Source: Microbacterium sp. BLY (lineage in GTDB: Bacteria > Actinomycetota > Actinomycetes > Actinomycetales > Microbacteriaceae). Taken from it: a stretch of DNA of 64,000 bases. Shown here one piece after another: positions 24,030 to 34,198 of the stretch. The notes beneath the pieces are model-generated. The model saw only the letters and a program-made list of their open reading frames with translations. It was not told where the DNA came from and did not search any database. Location of the stretch: the NCBI RefSeq assembly GCF_017939615.1, contig NZ_JAGKSR010000001.1, positions 2,356,001-2,420,000 on the forward strand, given 5' to 3'. Numbering within the stretch: position 1 is the first letter of the stretch; the number at the start of each line of letters is the position of its first letter. Position numbers and translations under genes: made by a program.

Positions 24030-24062
24030 GCCTGCCTGATGGCCAGTTCAGGCAGGTATGCG

Positions 24063-24068
24063 TAAACT
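24063..24068 (+). promoter_or_regulatory. -10 hexamer TAAACT for the secreted transglycosylase-like gene
   Basis: TAAACT ends ten bases before the GTG at 24079. It lies downstream of an upstream in-frame ATG (24058), which would therefore be outside the transcript. This favours the GTG start. Confidence 0.45.
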
Positions 24069-24078
24069 GTCCTCCATC

Positions 24079-24780
24079 GTGAACTCCCGAAACGACATGA
24101 TTCCCGAACGAAGCGACGCCGCGCTGGTACCCGCAGCGACGGCGACGTCCGCCTCCCGAGGTACGCGCCGCTGGTCGCGGCGTCGTGGCGTCGTCGGCGT
24201 CTTCAGCTCTCTCGCCGTCGTGGGTTTCGCCGCGGCGATGGTCGCGCCCACCGGTGTCGCCCTGGCTCAGCCGGTCACCGCGGACGCTCCGGAGTCGGTG
24301 TACTCGGCCGCTCTCGCGGACACCCAGAACCTGACAGTGACGGTCGAGGGCGCCGCGATCACGCCGGTCGAGCGCGGGACCTTCGAGGTCTACGTCAAGC
24401 CGAAGCCCAAGCCCAAGCCGAAGCCCGCTCCGGCGAGCACATCCTCGTCTTCCGGCTCGCAGGGTGGATCGTCCGGCGGCGGTCTCCCGCCGTACAGCGG
24501 GGGCGGCGCCCCCGCCGAGTGGATGGCGGCCGCGGGCATCGCCCAGAGCGACTGGCAGTACGTGGACTACATCGTCTCGCGCGAGAGCGGCTGGAACCCG
24601 AACGCCACCAACTCGTCGTCGGGTGCATGCGGCCTCGTGCAGGCACTGCCCTGCAGCAAGGTGCCGGGCAACGGCTACAACCCCGTGGACAACCTGCGCT
24701 GGGCCACCGGCTATGCGACCGGTCGCTACGGCAGCTGGGCCGGCGCGTACAACTTCTGGGTCACCAACCACTGGTGGTGA
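24079..24780 (+). CDS. Secreted lytic-transglycosylase-like protein with Lys-Pro linker
   Basis: A 233-residue exported protein. A long basic N-terminus with RRWSRRR precedes a hydrophobic signal (about 40-64, cleavage near ALAQ). A short domain follows, then a linker of five Lys-Pro repeats (KPKPKPKPKP) and a Ser/Gly-rich stretch. The last 70 residues resemble the catalytic fold of transglycosylase/resuscitation-factor-like proteins, with IVSRESGWNPNATNSSSGACGLVQ. The Glu in that motif is the expected catalytic acid, and ATGYATGRYGSWAGAYNFW closes the domain. The Lys-Pro linker may span or bind the wall. Start chosen from promoter position; ATG at 24058 or 24097 are alternatives. Confidence 0.78.
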   Translation: MNSRNDMIPERSDAALVPAATATSASRGTRRWSRRRGVVGVFSSLAVVGFAAAMVAPTGVALAQPVTADAPESVYSAALADTQNLTVTVEGAAITPVERGTFEVYVKPKPKPKPKPAPASTSSSSGSQGGSSGGGLPPYSGGGAPAEWMAAAGIAQSDWQYVDYIVSRESGWNPNATNSSSGACGLVQALPCSKVPGNGYNPVDNLRWATGYATGRYGSWAGAYNFWVTNHWW

Positions 24781-26873: not shown

Positions 26874-27053
26874 GCAGACTCCTCGGGTACGGCTGCAGCA
26901 AGGCTACCGATGCGGAGGGCCGTCTCGCCGCCGACGTGCCGGGTCACGGCCCGGGGGAGCCCCCTCGTGGGCAACACACAGGTGACTTCGCTAGTCTGAA
27001 ATGTCGAGTATGGCGTCGCGGGCGGGAAGCCGCGATGCGTGAGGAGACTATTC

Positions 27054-28973
27054 GTGCGTTTCGTATGGGCCGTGGTGGCCTTCGTGCTGGCTGCCGTGCT
27101 GATCGGTGCGGGCATCGCCCAGCGCACCATCTTCGTCGGCCCCTCGTCGCAGCAGACCAGGGTGGACATCGAGGAGCCGGCACCGTTCGTCCTGATGGAC
27201 GGCGACGTGCTGCGTCTCAACCCCGGCGCTCAGAAGCTGCTGATCCGCGGCGACGGCGAGATCTTCGCCAGCTACGGGCGCACCGCCGACATGGAGGCCT
27301 GGCTCTCCGACTCCGACTACAACCACGTCTCCGTCAGCGATGAGGACGAGCTCGTCGTGGATCACGTCGCCGCGCCGGATGCGGAGGGGGACACCGCGAC
27401 TCCCGCTCCCGAGGAGGGCGCGGAGGAGCCGGCGGGCCGCAACCCCGTCGGGTCCGACCTGTGGCTCGACTCCTTCAGCGAGGAGAACTTCCTCACCACC
27501 GACAACATGCAGCTGCCGGAGGGCACGAGCGTACTGATCGCCTACGACGGCACGAAGGATGCTCCGGACGACATCGTCGTCTCCTGGCCGCTGGACACGA
27601 GCACGCCTCTCGCCGGCCCGCTGATGGTCGCGGGCGGAATCGTGCTGCTCGTGGGCCTGGTGCTCTACGTCCTGGCGATCCGCCACCAGCGTCGCGGCCG
27701 TGGGCCGCGGCGGAAGGGCCCCGGTCCGCTGCCGACCACCCAGCCCATCGACGTCGCGGCTCTCCCGCCCGCCGAGCGCGAGGCATTGGAGGCCCCCGGT
27801 GACGCGGCGCCTCAGGAGGCGCCGGGAAAGGACGACGTGGAGGACGCAGAGATCGTCGACGAGAAGAAGTCGGACGGGAAGACGTCGATGCGCGGAGTGC
27901 GACGCCCGCCGCGCCGACGTCTGCTCGCCCTGCCCGCCCTCGGCCTCACGGCCGTCCTCGCCGCCGGCTGCTCGGCGGAGTCGTGGCCGCAGTTCGGTGA
28001 CGCCTCCAGCTCGCCCTCGCCGAGCCCGACCGTGATCGCCCCGGAGAACCAGAAGCCGCCGGCGGTGACCGAGTCGCAGGCCGATCGCATCCTCCGCGAG
28101 GTGTCCGACACCCTCGTGCAGGCCGACGAGGCCAAGGACATCGATCTCGCCGCCACCCGTCTCGACGGTGCCCCGCTGGCGACGCGGACCACGGAGTACA
28201 CGCTGCGTGAGAAGATCCCCGATCGTCCGGCGTCGGCCGCGATCCCGACCGACGACGTGGAGGTCGTCCTGCCCGAGGCCACGGACCGCTGGCCGCGCAC
28301 CGTCCTGATGCTCTCGAAGAGCACGGGGGACGACACGGTTCCGCCGGTCCTGCTGACGATGACCCAGGCCGACCCGTGGTCCAACTACAAGGTCACGAAC
28401 ATGGCCGAGATGTCGGCCGACGCCGTGTTCCCCGAGGTCGCCGCGAGCTGGCTGGGCACGTCCCTCGTGCCCGCCGACTCCGCCTTCCTCTCCGTTCCGC
28501 CGAACGAGGTGGCCGCCGCCTTCGCGGACGTCGTGGACAACGGCGAGAAGAGTGCGTCCTACGGCATGTTCGACGAGCTGGCGCTCAACCTCGCGACGTC
28601 GATCAGGGACAGCCGGCAGACCCTCGTGCAGGGGCTCGCCGACGCGGGCGCCGCCAAGACGTCCAAGGCCGCGTTCGACATGAAGCCGACGGACGCCGAG
28701 CCCGTCTCCCTGACGACGCTGGACAGCGGGGCGATCGTCGCCGTCTCCGTGCTCGATGTCGAGACCATCACGCCCACGTCCTCCGATGTCGTCATCCGTT
28801 TCGGCGACAACAAGGAGGCGAAGGCTCTCACGGGAGCCAACGAGTCCGCCAAGGGCGCGGAGACGACTTACGAGTTCCAGCTGTTCTTCGCCGTCCCGTC
28901 CCAGGGATCGAGCGAACCGATCCGGCTCCTGGCCTCGCGCCAGGACCTCGTCTCCGTGAAGGTGATCAAGTGA
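27054..28973 (+). CDS. Large membrane protein of unknown function with an internal lipobox
   Basis: 639 residues. An N-terminal helix (about 2-22) is followed by an external domain (about 23-185), a second helix (about 189-209), an Arg-rich then acidic cytoplasmic linker (about 210-280), and then RRRLLALPALGLTAVLAAGC near 287-306. That last segment is a complete lipoprotein signal with lipobox LAAGC. A further extracytoplasmic domain of about 330 residues follows. An ATG at 27888 would begin a stand-alone lipoprotein with Cys28. GTG at 27054 is chosen because GAGGAG lies at the right distance. The last four bases overlap the thioredoxin-TPR gene. I do not recognise the family. Confidence 0.72.
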   Translation: MRFVWAVVAFVLAAVLIGAGIAQRTIFVGPSSQQTRVDIEEPAPFVLMDGDVLRLNPGAQKLLIRGDGEIFASYGRTADMEAWLSDSDYNHVSVSDEDELVVDHVAAPDAEGDTATPAPEEGAEEPAGRNPVGSDLWLDSFSEENFLTTDNMQLPEGTSVLIAYDGTKDAPDDIVVSWPLDTSTPLAGPLMVAGGIVLLVGLVLYVLAIRHQRRGRGPRRKGPGPLPTTQPIDVAALPPAEREALEAPGDAAPQEAPGKDDVEDAEIVDEKKSDGKTSMRGVRRPPRRRLLALPALGLTAVLAAGCSAESWPQFGDASSSPSPSPTVIAPENQKPPAVTESQADRILREVSDTLVQADEAKDIDLAATRLDGAPLATRTTEYTLREKIPDRPASAAIPTDDVEVVLPEATDRWPRTVLMLSKSTGDDTVPPVLLTMTQADPWSNYKVTNMAEMSADAVFPEVAASWLGTSLVPADSAFLSVPPNEVAAAFADVVDNGEKSASYGMFDELALNLATSIRDSRQTLVQGLADAGAAKTSKAAFDMKPTDAEPVSLTTLDSGAIVAVSVLDVETITPTSSDVVIRFGDNKEAKALTGANESAKGAETTYEFQLFFAVPSQGSSEPIRLLASRQDLVSVKVIK

Positions 28974-29905
28974 GCGAGATCTCTCCCGCCGCCCTGCGCG
29001 GTGCCGTCGACCTGTCGAGCCTGCGCAACCGTCCGTCCGGTGCCGCGGGTGCCGCGCCCGTCTCCGCCGGTGGCCCCGTCACCGATGTGGTGGTCGACGC
29101 CACCGACGAGAACTTCGGCCAGGTCCTCGAGCTCTCGCGCACGGTTCCGGTCGTCGTCGATCTGTGGGCCGAGTGGTGCGGGCCGTGCAAGCAGCTCAGC
29201 CCCATCATCGAGAAGGTGACGCGCGAGCTCGGTGGTCGCGTGCTCCTCGCCAAGGTGGATGTCGACGCCAACCCGCAGCTCGCGCAGAGCTTCCGGGCGC
29301 AGTCGATCCCGATGGTCGTCGCGCTGATCGCCGGGCAGCCGGTGCCGATGTTCACCGGGGCCGTCCCCGAGCAGCAGGTGCGCGACGTCTTCGCCCAGCT
29401 GCTGCAGGTGGCGGCGCAGAACGGCGTCACCGGCACGCTGCCGATGGGCGACGCCGAGTCCGGCGACGCCGCGGCACCTGCCGAACCGGAGCTGCCGCCG
29501 CTGCACGCCGAGGCGTACGCCGCGATCGAGCGCGGTGACTATCGTGCGGCGATCACCGCGTACGAGAAGGCACTAGCGGAGAACCCGCGGGACGAAGAGG
29601 CGATCGCCGGTCTCGGGCAGGTGCGCCTGCTCGACCGGGTGCAGGGCCTCGACCTGCAGCAGGCGCGAGCCGCCGCGGCCGACGCGCCCCTCGACGTCCA
29701 GGCCCAGTTCAACGTGGCCGACCTCGACCTCGCCGGGGGCCACGTGGACGACGCCTTCGGACGTCTGCTCGATCTGTTCTCCCAGCTGCCCTCCGATGAG
29801 CGCGCACCGGTGCGCGAGCGCCTCGTCGAGCTCTTCGGGCTCATCGGCGCAGGCGACCCGCGCGTCGTGGCTGCGCGGAACCGCCTCTCCTCGCTGCTGT
29901 TCTGA
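28970..29905 (+). CDS. Thioredoxin-TPR co-chaperone-like protein (CnoX/YbbN type)
   Basis: A 311-residue cytosolic protein. The thioredoxin domain (about 38-145) has the active CxxC intact in DLWAEWCGPCKQLSP. It is followed by an acidic linker and tetratricopeptide-like helices (about 180-300: AYAAIERGDYRAAITAYEKAL, VADLDLAGGHVDDAFGRLLDLF). E. coli CnoX, with the same layout, is a redox-linked holdase that hands substrates to GroEL and DnaK. A GTG start overlaps the membrane-protein gene by four bases, so it may help mature or protect that protein; this link is inferred from position. Confidence 0.88.
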   Translation: MSEISPAALRGAVDLSSLRNRPSGAAGAAPVSAGGPVTDVVVDATDENFGQVLELSRTVPVVVDLWAEWCGPCKQLSPIIEKVTRELGGRVLLAKVDVDANPQLAQSFRAQSIPMVVALIAGQPVPMFTGAVPEQQVRDVFAQLLQVAAQNGVTGTLPMGDAESGDAAAPAEPELPPLHAEAYAAIERGDYRAAITAYEKALAENPRDEEAIAGLGQVRLLDRVQGLDLQQARAAAADAPLDVQAQFNVADLDLAGGHVDDAFGRLLDLFSQLPSDERAPVRERLVELFGLIGAGDPRVVAARNRLSSLLF

Positions 29906-29930: not shown

Positions 29931-32132
29931 TCAGCCGTTGTTCACGGTGGGCACGTGCGGTTCCGGCTGGTGACGCAGCCAGATCGTGGACAGTGCCGGC
30001 AGCGTGAGGGAAGCGGTCGGTGCCTCTGCGTCACCGGACTCCGCGACCACCATTCCGAGGTTCCCCGAGCCGCGTCCCCCGTACACGGCGGCGTCGGAGT
30101 TGAGGATCTCCTGCCACACGCCCGCCCGGGACATGCCGAGGCGGTAGCCGGTGCGCTCGACTCCGGCGAAGTTGCTGACCACCACGAGGCGGCCGCCGTG
30201 GGAGTCGCGTCGCTCGAAGGCGATGACCGACGGGTCCCAGCTCGGCGCCCCGAGGCGGGTGAACCCTGAGCCGTCACTGTCGCGCTCCCACAGCGGTGCC
30301 TGCACCCGGTACACGCCGTTCATCGCGGCGACGAAGTCCTGCAACTGGGCGTGCGACGGCTGGTCGCGGAGCCACCAGTCCAGCTCCCGTCCCTCCGACC
30401 ACTCGGCGAGCTGCCCGAACTCCTGTCCCATGAACAGGAGCTTCTTGCCGGGATGTCCCCACATGTACCCGAGGAAGGCCCGGGCATTGGCGAGCTTGTG
30501 CCAATGGTCGCCCGGCATCTTCGACAGCAGGCTCCCCTTGCCGTGCACGACCTCGTCGTGGCTGATGGGAAGGACGTAGTTCTCCCCGAACGCGTACACG
30601 AACGAGAACGTCATCTCGCCCTCGTGATGGGCCCGGTACATCGGATCGCGCCCGATGTACTGCAACGAGTCGTTCATCCAGCCCATGTTCCACTTGAACC
30701 CGAAGCCGAGGCCGGCGTGATCGGTCGGCGCCGTGACCCCCGGGAAGCTGGTGGACTCCTCGGCGATCATCAGGATCCCGGGGTGCAGACGGTATGCGGT
30801 CGCATTGACCTCCTGGAGGAACCGGATCGCCTCGAGGTTCTCGCGTCCGCCGTGGATGTTCGGCTCCCACTCGCCCTCCCGGCGCGAGTAGTCGAGGTAC
30901 AGCATCGACGCCACGGCGTCCACGCGCAGCCCGTCGACGTGGAACTCCTCGAACCAGTAGAGCGCGTTCGCGACGAGGAAGCCGCGGACCTCCGGCCGGC
31001 CGTAATCGAAGATCAGCGTGCCCCAGTCCTGGTGCTCGCCGCGACGAGGGTCGGGGTGCTCGTACAGCGGCTGACCGTCGAACCGCGCCAGGGCGAACTC
31101 GTCCTTCGGGAAGTGCCCCGGCACCCAGTCCAGGATCACGCCGATGCCGGCGCGGTGCAGCCGATCGATGAGGTACCGGAGGTCATCGGGGGAGCCGTAG
31201 CGGCTCGTCGGCGCGTAGTACCCGCTCACCTGATAGCCCCAGGAGCCGCCGAAGGGATGCTCGGCCAGCGGCATGAACTCGACGTGGGTGAAGCCGGTCT
31301 CCTGCACATGGGCGATGAGCGGGTCGGCCATCTCGCGGTAGCCCAATCCACCGCGCCAGGAGCCGACGTGCACCTCGTACACCGACAGGGGCTGAGCGAC
31401 GGCATGGGTCGCGGCACGCCGGGTCATCCACGCGCCGTCCTGCCAGGTGTACGAGGACGCGGTCACGACCGATGCGGTCTCGGGCGGGACCTGGGCAGCC
31501 TGTGCCATCGGGTCGGCTTTGAGGATCCAGGCACCGCTCCGCGTGCGGATCTGGTACTTGTAGCGCGTGCCGACCGCCAGGTCGGGCACGAAAAGTTCCC
31601 AGATGCCGCTGGCGCCGAGGGAACGGAGGGCATGGGTCTCGCCGTTCCAGCCGTTGTGGTCGCCCGCGACGCGGACGGCCGTGGCGTCGGGCGCCCAGAC
31701 CGCGAAAGAGACTCCCTGCTCGTCGCCGTGCGTGCGCGGGTGCGCCCCCAGCACCTCCCAGAGGCGTTCGTGGCGTCCTTCGGCGATCAGGTGGAGGTCG
31801 AGTTCGCCGAGCGTGGGCGCGTGTCTATAGGGGTCGCCGGCGACGGTCTCCTCCTCATCCCGGTAGCGGGTCGCGACCCGGTAGGGGAGCGAGGGCCCAG
31901 GATGCGTGCCTTCCCAGATGCCGTGTGCGGCGTGGACGAGGGGGAGGCGGCTGCCATCGCCGAAGACGGCCTCGACTGCTTCCGCGAGAGGACGTCGCAC
32001 GCGGATCGTGGTGATGGTGCGACCCGCGGCGTCCTTCGTGGGATGAGCGCCGAGAACGGCATGCGGGTCGTGGTGCTGTCCGGCCGCGACGGCCTCCCAG
32101 TCCGCCGTCGCGGTGTCGTCGATGCGGCTCAT
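29931..32132 (-). CDS. glgB: 1,4-alpha-glucan branching enzyme
   Basis: Forms alpha-1,6 branches in glycogen-like glucan. The 733-residue protein has two N-terminal carbohydrate-binding/immunoglobulin-like domains (about 10-215; VLGAHPTKDAAG and FAVWAPDATAVRVAGDHNGW). The GH13 barrel has the nucleophile Asp in VDGLRVDAVASMLYLDYSR near 408, the acid Glu in LMIAEESTSFPG near 460 and the third acid in LPISHDEVVHGKGSLL near 527. The ATG overlaps the glgE stop (ATGA), so both are made from one mRNA. GlgE and GlgB act together, the first extending chains and the second branching them. Confidence 0.96.
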   Translation of the reverse strand: MSRIDDTATADWEAVAAGQHHDPHAVLGAHPTKDAAGRTITTIRVRRPLAEAVEAVFGDGSRLPLVHAAHGIWEGTHPGPSLPYRVATRYRDEEETVAGDPYRHAPTLGELDLHLIAEGRHERLWEVLGAHPRTHGDEQGVSFAVWAPDATAVRVAGDHNGWNGETHALRSLGASGIWELFVPDLAVGTRYKYQIRTRSGAWILKADPMAQAAQVPPETASVVTASSYTWQDGAWMTRRAATHAVAQPLSVYEVHVGSWRGGLGYREMADPLIAHVQETGFTHVEFMPLAEHPFGGSWGYQVSGYYAPTSRYGSPDDLRYLIDRLHRAGIGVILDWVPGHFPKDEFALARFDGQPLYEHPDPRRGEHQDWGTLIFDYGRPEVRGFLVANALYWFEEFHVDGLRVDAVASMLYLDYSRREGEWEPNIHGGRENLEAIRFLQEVNATAYRLHPGILMIAEESTSFPGVTAPTDHAGLGFGFKWNMGWMNDSLQYIGRDPMYRAHHEGEMTFSFVYAFGENYVLPISHDEVVHGKGSLLSKMPGDHWHKLANARAFLGYMWGHPGKKLLFMGQEFGQLAEWSEGRELDWWLRDQPSHAQLQDFVAAMNGVYRVQAPLWERDSDGSGFTRLGAPSWDPSVIAFERRDSHGGRLVVVSNFAGVERTGYRLGMSRAGVWQEILNSDAAVYGGRGSGNLGMVVAESGDAEAPTASLTLPALSTIWLRHQPEPHVPTVNNG

Positions 32133-34198
32133 GCGCGCTCCCTCACCTTCAGGATGTGGACCGGCTCGGCGAAGGCGTCGAGCCGCACGTAGTTGTGATC
32201 GCTCCAGGTCCAGACGCTCCCGGTGAGGAGGTCCTCCACCTCGAAGGACTCGCCGAGGGGCACACCCCATCGGGTGGTGTCGAGATGGACGGTCGTCTCC
32301 CGCACCGAGTGCGGATCGACGTTCGCCACCACGATGAGGGTGTCGGCATGCCCGGTACCGGTGAACGCCGCATCGAGATGCTTGCTGTAGACGAGGATCG
32401 CGTCGTCGTCGCTCCAATGGAGCTCGAGGTTGCGCAGCTGCCGCAGCGCGGGATGCTCAGCGCGGATGCCGTTCAGCCGCCGCAGCAGGGGAGCCAGGGA
32501 CTCGCCCCGCTCCTCGGCTCCGGACCAGTCGCGGAACTTGTACTCGTACTTCTCGTTGTCGATGTTCTCCTCGGAGCCGGGACGCGCCACGTTCTCGACG
32601 AGTTCGTACCCGGCATACACGCCGTACACGGGGCCCGCCGTCGCGGCGATGCAGGCGCGGATCCGATAGGCCGCCCGGCCGCCGAACTGGAGGTACTCGG
32701 TGAGGATGTCGTGCGTGTTCACGAAGAGGTTCGGACGCATGTAGTCGGCGGTCTCGTGCGAGATCGAGGTGAGGAACTCCTCCAGCTCGGCCTTGGTGTT
32801 GCGCCAGGTGAAGTAGCTGTAGCTCTGCTGGAACCCAACCGCGGCGAGCGCGCGCATCACGGCGGGGCGGGTGAACGCCTCGGCCAGGAAGATGACGTCG
32901 GGATCCGTCTCGTTCACGGTGGCGATGAGCCATTCCCAGAAGCGGAGCGGCTTGGTGTGGGGGTTGTCGACGCGGAAGATGCGCACGCCCTCGCCCACCC
33001 AGTGACGGACGACCCGCAGCATCTCGGCGGCGATGCCGTCCCGATCGTTGTCGAAGTTCAGCGGGTAGATGTCCTGGTACTTCTTCGGCGGGTTCTCGGC
33101 GTAGGCGATGCTGCCGTCCGGGAGGGTGGTGAACCACTCCGGGTGCTCGCGCACCCACGGATGGTCGGGGGAGGCCTGCAGGGCGAGGTCGAGGGCGACC
33201 TCCAGTCCCTCCTTCCGCGCCGCGCGGATGAAGGCGTGGAAGTCCTGGGCTGTGCCGAGATCCGGGTGGATGGCGTCGTGGCCCCCCTCCGCCGACCCGA
33301 TCGCGTAGGGGGACCCGGGGTCTCCGGGTTCGGCGACGAGGGTGTTGTTGCGGCCCTTGCGGTTGGTGGTGCCGATGGGGTGGATCGGGACGAGGTAGAT
33401 GACGTCGAAACCCATGCCGGCGACGTCCGGCAGTCGCTTGGCGGCGGTGCGGAACGTCCCGCTGCGCACGGTGCCGTCCTTGAGCCGTCGCGCGCCCTCG
33501 GATCGGGGGAAGAACTCGTACCAGGCCCCGACACCGGCACGCGTGCGCTCGACCCGCAGCACCTGGGGCTCGGACGCGGAGCGGAGAGTCGTGACGGGGC
33601 GGTCCCGGAAGATCGCCGCGAGCTCGGGGTCGACCGCCAGCGCCGCCGTGGTGGCCGCGTCTCCGGCCCGGAGCGAGTCGGCCTGTGCGCGCAGGCGGGT
33701 GCGTTGCGCGGCGGGGCGGTCCTTCTCGGCGGCCGCCCTGCGCAACAGCTCCGCGCCGAGCGCCGCCATCACGGGGACGTCCACTCCCGCCGCGACCTTG
33801 AGGTGCGCCGCATGCGCCCAGGTCGCGAAGTCGTCGGAGAACGCCTCGAAGCGATAGCGCCAGAGCCCCTCCGCATCCAGAGCGATCGGCGCCTCCCAGC
33901 GGTCGGTCCCGTCGGCGCGGGGGGTGAGGCGATGCAGGCTCTCCTCGCCGGTCGGCGCGGTCAGCCGCACGTGCACGCCGATGAGGTCGTGTCCTTCCCG
34001 GAACGCCACGACGCTGAACGGCACGACCTCTCCGGCGAACGCCTTGGCGGGGAAGCCGCCGGGCACGGAGGGTCTGCCGTCGAGCAGCGGGATGCGGGTG
34101 GTCCGCAGATCCCCCGGAAGGTCCGCGTCGGCGACGCGCATCGGGATCTGGGCGGGGCTCCGCAGAGCCGAGGGCCGGGTTCCTGCTCGTGCAATCAC
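32129..34198 (-). CDS. glgE: Alpha-1,4-glucan:maltose-1-phosphate maltosyltransferase
   Basis: Adds maltosyl units from maltose 1-phosphate to alpha-glucan, an actinobacterial route to glycogen-like polymers. The 689-residue GH13 subfamily enzyme contains the catalytic Asp in VRIFRVDNPHTKPLRF near 412, the Glu in IFLAEAFTRPAVM near 441 and the transition-state Asp in NTHDILTEYLQFGG. IHPIGTTNRKGRNN is a subfamily feature. GTG at 34198 is supported by TAGATT six bases upstream. Enzymes that make maltose 1-phosphate (TreS, Mak) are not in the window. Confidence 0.96.
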   Translation of the reverse strand: MIARAGTRPSALRSPAQIPMRVADADLPGDLRTTRIPLLDGRPSVPGGFPAKAFAGEVVPFSVVAFREGHDLIGVHVRLTAPTGEESLHRLTPRADGTDRWEAPIALDAEGLWRYRFEAFSDDFATWAHAAHLKVAAGVDVPVMAALGAELLRRAAAEKDRPAAQRTRLRAQADSLRAGDAATTAALAVDPELAAIFRDRPVTTLRSASEPQVLRVERTRAGVGAWYEFFPRSEGARRLKDGTVRSGTFRTAAKRLPDVAGMGFDVIYLVPIHPIGTTNRKGRNNTLVAEPGDPGSPYAIGSAEGGHDAIHPDLGTAQDFHAFIRAARKEGLEVALDLALQASPDHPWVREHPEWFTTLPDGSIAYAENPPKKYQDIYPLNFDNDRDGIAAEMLRVVRHWVGEGVRIFRVDNPHTKPLRFWEWLIATVNETDPDVIFLAEAFTRPAVMRALAAVGFQQSYSYFTWRNTKAELEEFLTSISHETADYMRPNLFVNTHDILTEYLQFGGRAAYRIRACIAATAGPVYGVYAGYELVENVARPGSEENIDNEKYEYKFRDWSGAEERGESLAPLLRRLNGIRAEHPALRQLRNLELHWSDDDAILVYSKHLDAAFTGTGHADTLIVVANVDPHSVRETTVHLDTTRWGVPLGESFEVEDLLTGSVWTWSDHNYVRLDAFAEPVHILKVRERA

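Follow-up and report, generated by a model that had tools for sequence, protein, structure and literature searches.

A lipoprotein signal inside a membrane protein gene

A gene of Microbacterium sp. BLY joins, in a single reading frame, a membrane protein with two transmembrane helices to a lipoprotein domain preceded by a complete lipoprotein signal, and comparison with relatives suggests that its product is probably one precursor, internally lipidated by Lgt and cut by Lsp. The gene lies on the plus strand of the window, the 64,000-nucleotide stretch of DNA that was analyzed, and its features are collected in Table 1. The frame is open from GTG 27039 or GTG 27054 to the TGA at 28971–28973. 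The second of these candidate starts appears the better one, because AGGAGA stands just upstream of it, relatives conserve the GTGCGNTT start, and in-frame stops occur just upstream in several of them. The first-pass annotation had also chosen 27054, and had described one frame comprising two membrane helices, an Arg-rich cytoplasmic linker, a basic stretch, a hydrophobic core and a lipobox; this description is borne out by the sequence, and the choice of start by the three observations above. Counted from GTG 27054, the residue encoded at 27969 is Cys306. Promoter, terminator and Rfam scans were empty.

Table 1. Coordinates of the fused gene, its parts and the adjoining gene in the window
Feature	Position	Strand	Details
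Fused gene (two-helix membrane protein, internal lipoprotein signal and lipoprotein domain)	27054..28973	+	639 aa; GTG start
AGGAGA, Shine-Dalgarno-like, of the fused gene	27042..27047	+	just upstream of GTG 27054
N-terminal part: TM1, beta-rich extracytoplasmic domain, TM2, then putative RHQRRGRGPRRK stop-transfer on the cytoplasmic side	27054..27731	+	AlphaFold2 helices and conserved alignment
TM1	about 27057-27120	+	in the N-terminal part of the fused gene
TM2	about 27612-27692	+	followed by RHQRRGRGPRRK
Variable cytoplasmic linker, Arg-rich	27732..27887	+	RGPRR-to-Cys distance of 17-107 residues across fusions
Internal lipoprotein signal: MRGVRRPPRRR, then LLALPALGLTAVLAAG, then Cys	27888..27971	+	Cys codon 27969-27971
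In-frame ATG, possible alternative start, not conserved	27888..27890	+	27 codons upstream of the Cys
Predicted mature lipoprotein, 334 aa, distant SCO2278-family relative	27969..28970	+	NCBIfam NF053531, E 1.3e-10, below cut-off
Thioredoxin (WCGPC) and TPR protein	28970..29905	+	start overlaps the fused-gene stop (GTGA at 28970)

The AlphaFold2 model of the N-terminal part (mean pLDDT 64) places two long helices, residues 2–31 and 192–219 as numbered from 27039, around a beta-rich domain. Neither half of the fused protein matched a Pfam family, and a search by sequence for relatives of solved structure found none. The lipoprotein signal, RRPPRRRLLALPALGLTAVLAAGC, is complete and in frame with the membrane domain, and the internal segment VRRPPRRRLLALPALGLTAVLAAGC terminates at its Cys codon, beyond which lies a polar domain. 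The window's RRR-LLALPALGLTAVLAAG-C has the form expected of a lipobox, [LVI][ASTVI][GAS]C, preceded first by a basic region, then by a short hydrophobic core; rather than standing at the N-terminus of the translated chain, however, this signal lies ~300 residues into it. The host genome encodes both lgt and lsp.

The frequency of such an arrangement by chance was estimated from 464 kb of the same genome (about 14% of it), comprising 317 crude gene calls and 133,458 aa, using a pattern of at least two K/R, 12 uncharged residues and a lipobox Cys. This rule recovers eight N-terminal lipoprotein signals, and the pattern is truly internal only in the fused gene. The other match away from an N-terminus, at residue 61, proved to be an N-terminal signal in an open reading frame with an over-extended start. 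With no second genuine internal case in the 464 kb, a chance occurrence of the pattern was rejected.

Distribution and origin of the fusion

Searches spanned the family, order and genus, and 175 loci with both parts were read. The protein was found in 149 of 150 family genomes (85/85 genus codes) and in 58 of the 59 genomes from the genus. Every one of the 119 Microbacteriaceae loci read is fused (108 in 59 genus codes and 11 from named Microbacterium), although some species are counted twice, as named and unnamed entries, and the counts are not all independent. The two parts are also fused in all 13 loci of two further families, nine in family code f6 and four in f7. The fusion is thus not local to this genome but shared throughout a family of soil bacteria. 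A join of two genes by a sequencing or assembly error, an idea to which the two-gene arrangement found elsewhere lends its only appeal, is scarcely credible given that an identical single frame occurs in more than 100 assemblies, and was rejected.

The first-pass annotation had proposed a search for relatives in which the two parts are separate genes, and these exist in 43 loci from eleven other families of the order. The same membrane protein, lipoprotein and thioredoxin-TPR genes occur there in the same order; the relatives differ in that the first two are separate genes, and in that every separate lipoprotein gene carries its own start and lipobox, with the signal at the N-terminus. In 40 of the 43 loci the two coding regions share exactly 4 bp, the membrane gene ending and the lipoprotein gene beginning within ATGA or GTGA, and the other three have a TGATG junction. 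Class-level outgroups likewise have two genes, several with ATGA or TTGA. On the lipoprotein-domain tree, a quick tree with SH-aLRT support only, the fused or split state changes once. Because the outgroups also have two genes, the simplest history would be that a translationally coupled pair fused a single time, in the ancestor shared by Microbacteriaceae, f6 and f7. In Streptomyces-like genomes the lipoprotein was found alone, and its membrane partner was not found there.

The region between TM2 and the lipoprotein signal varies greatly in length. In the f7 fusions (L057, L140, L175 and L176) the cytoplasmic linker from TM2 to the internal signal is very short, and the lipobox is kept. Separate membrane genes in the two-gene loci (L059–L061, L145, L146 and others) often have cytoplasmic tails of 200–300 codons after TM2, and these tails, which precede the ATGA overlap, are much longer than the linker of the fusions.

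Conservation and loss of the lipobox cysteine

The lipobox is present in 118 of the 132 fusions, where the –1 residue is G in 107, A in 7 and S in 4, and throughout the Microbacteriaceae the internal signals are strikingly alike. In 112 of these 118 proteins, of ~600 aa each, the lipobox Cys is the sole Cys. The stretch from the last charge to the Cys is 17 residues (15–20) in the fusions, compared to 16 (13–17) in the lipoproteins of two-gene loci, and is shorter than the uncharged runs of both TM1 (21 residues) and TM2 (29 residues). Being shorter than either helix, and like that of the separate lipoproteins, the segment seems to have stayed signal-like and not to have grown into an ordinary membrane helix.

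These observations bear on the possibility of an uncut membrane protein with three helices, in which the third hydrophobic segment would be a signal anchor and the Cys would be unmodified, or lipidated without cleavage. The same topology would be expected of such a protein, and the loss of the Cys in 14 fused members, which on the tree requires five independent changes, indicates that the lipid is dispensable in places and that lipidation is not essential everywhere. However, an uncut protein accounts poorly for (i) the retention of the Cys and full lipobox in 118 fusions otherwise almost free of Cys, (ii) an uncharged segment of signal-like length, and (iii) the production of the same part as an ordinary lipoprotein in two-gene relatives. 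A type-I-like cut site is also seen in most Cys-less members, at a frequency no higher than their alanine-rich composition would give. Overall, we consider an uncut protein unlikely.

The 14 fusions that lack the Cys comprise all nine f6 members and five from Microbacteriaceae. An A-x-A follows the hydrophobic core in 10 of 13 Cys-less fusions, compared to 12 of 118 Cys-bearing ones (counted after the Cys). Shuffled tails of the Cys-less fusions gave a mean of 8.3 of 13 (p 0.21), and because the motif does no better than these tails we do not claim a proven type I site in the Cys-less members. If such sites are real, they hint that cleavage, and not the lipid, is what is kept. The Cys is absent from every f6 member sampled (L053, L055, L056, L064, L065, L139, L160, L161 and L162), and f6 internal signals mostly end in sites of A-x-A-like form, which would fit a product that is set free or is anchored by some means other than a lipid. 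Within a single genus (code g8), L007 has LALAGC where L098 has SQAYAET (SQAYA-ET) in proteins that are 74% identical; this difference between the two internal signals is, judged by their sequences, a recent switch.

One precursor or an internal start

A lipoprotein could also arise from translation starting within the frame. The first-pass annotation had offered two routes, one precursor cut and lipidated mid-chain, or ATG 27888 as a separate start. Initiation at this ATG (or at GTG 27837) would yield a separate lipoprotein beside the full-length chain. The ATG is suitably placed, immediately before the basic stretch; among the 20 closest relatives examined, most have an ATG here or one codon away, and a few close relatives have a good, GGAGG-like Shine-Dalgarno sequence upstream. 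At ATG 27888 itself the Shine-Dalgarno complementarity is weak. Wider comparison argues against this route: the close Microbacterium relatives L032–L036 and L040 have N, E, L or S codons in place of the Met, and 39 of the 118 lipobox-bearing fusions have no ATG, GTG or TTG at all 15–45 codons before the Cys. Shine-Dalgarno matches of at least 5 nt occur at 98 of 118 gene starts and at 34 of 43 starts of separate lipoproteins, but at 12 of 118 internal candidates. Moreover, with internal initiation it would be hard to see why three families have preserved the single frame. As neither start codon nor Shine-Dalgarno sequence is conserved over the 118 fusions, an internal start was rejected as the general route and is decidedly improbable as an account of the fused gene, although an extra start of this kind is possible within the window's own subclade, where the earlier alternative may yet apply.

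The comparison strongly favors one precursor, because the fused frame and internal lipobox are both kept across Microbacteriaceae and one further family, the Cys is nearly always the sole one, and the sister arrangement is a pair of genes overlapping by 4 bp, the second with an ordinary N-terminal lipoprotein signal; renewed translocation, lipidation and cleavage in the cell are predicted from the same comparison. In this account the gene arose long ago, when two envelope genes linked by translational coupling became one reading frame, and it would now be translated into a single chain. TM1 and TM2 would enter the membrane so that the first domain faces outward and the Arg-rich linker stays in the cytoplasm. 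What was once the N-terminal signal peptide of the lipoprotein would then bring the chain back to the Sec translocon, acting as an internal signal; Lgt would add diacylglycerol to its Cys, and Lsp would subsequently cut before this residue. Two products would result at a fixed 1:1 ratio: a membrane protein, which retains the signal peptide along with the linker, and an anchored lipoprotein. Such a division of one translation product would be unusual for bacteria. From the 1:1 coupling and the synteny, we would guess that the two form one envelope complex.

Relation to known polyproteins

The gene has the hallmark of an internally cleaved polyprotein, in that a single frame covers a membrane protein followed by an exported one whose signal is internal. 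Its nearest known precedent may be FbcH of Bradyrhizobium japonicum, a cytochrome b/c1 precursor that is cut at an internal type I signal into two subunits. In both cases a single bacterial gene encodes a membrane protein and, behind it, another protein that has an internal signal peptide. However, FbcH is processed by type I signal peptidase and its second part is a c-type cytochrome, whereas the fused gene has a lipobox, the signal for Lsp, and the proteins are unrelated. Flavivirus-type viral polyproteins also contain internal signal peptides cut by the signal peptidase of the cell; these belong to eukaryotic viruses and involve type I signal peptidase, and the likeness is one of analogy only. 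A limited literature search (internal lipobox, internal lipoprotein signal peptides and FbcH) found no counterpart cut by Lsp, which is no proof of novelty.

If the precursor is cut as proposed, Lsp would serve as a polyprotein protease. It is an evenly balanced question whether the wider reading also holds, in which the gene would be a long-standing bacterial polyprotein throughout the family, with Lsp as its processing protease (and a switch to type I in five lineages), supplying two envelope subunits at 1:1 in place of ATGA coupling. Such a case would suggest how the partners of a bacterial operon can turn into a polyprotein. The family and its relatives offer a natural experiment, with two coupled genes, fusions with an Lsp signal and fusions without the Cys, and allow a test of whether Lgt and Lsp can act on an internal substrate that lies behind two membrane helices. 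Because a lipoprotein signal is taken to be an N-terminal feature, the one in the fused gene would be missed by signal predictors and by annotation pipelines.

The lipoprotein domain and the neighboring genes

The lipoprotein half is, by sequence, distantly homologous to the SCO2278 family lipoproteins (NF053531), though not a member as that family is defined: the window scores 40.7 bits against a curated cut-off of 210 bits. The family is weakly matched by 22 of 26 relatives, with E down to 7e-23. The extracytoplasmic domain is homologous in the two, although the Streptomyces-like members of the SCO2278 family stand alone, without a membrane partner, unlike the fused gene. The AlphaFold2 model of the lipoprotein is poor (mean pLDDT 53) but better over residues 165–334. 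In this partial model, the second half may resemble NTF2/VirB8-like domains, with a middling best Z of 8.4 (5cnl), and the structure search returned many unrelated NTF2-like matches for the lipoprotein half.

The downstream gene matches Pfam Thioredoxin (4e-21) and TPR_20 (4e-23), and these matches, together with the GTGA overlap, agree with the first-pass annotation, which had described the fused gene as coupled to a thioredoxin-TPR gene. Among loci with enough flank, the thioredoxin-TPR gene is directly next in all 127 fusions and in 41 of the 42 two-gene loci (168/169 overall), and the genes upstream of the fused gene vary. The near-invariance of the one and the variability of the others suggest that the unit consists of membrane protein, lipoprotein and thioredoxin-TPR protein. 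Beyond the thioredoxin-TPR gene, itself almost invariant across the taxonomic order, glgB and glgE are often found convergent (29931–34198 in the window). Upstream, at 24058–24780 in the window, the open reading frame list gives a secreted protein that contains a KPKPKPKPKPAP stretch and carries at its C-terminus a domain resembling a lytic transglycosylase.
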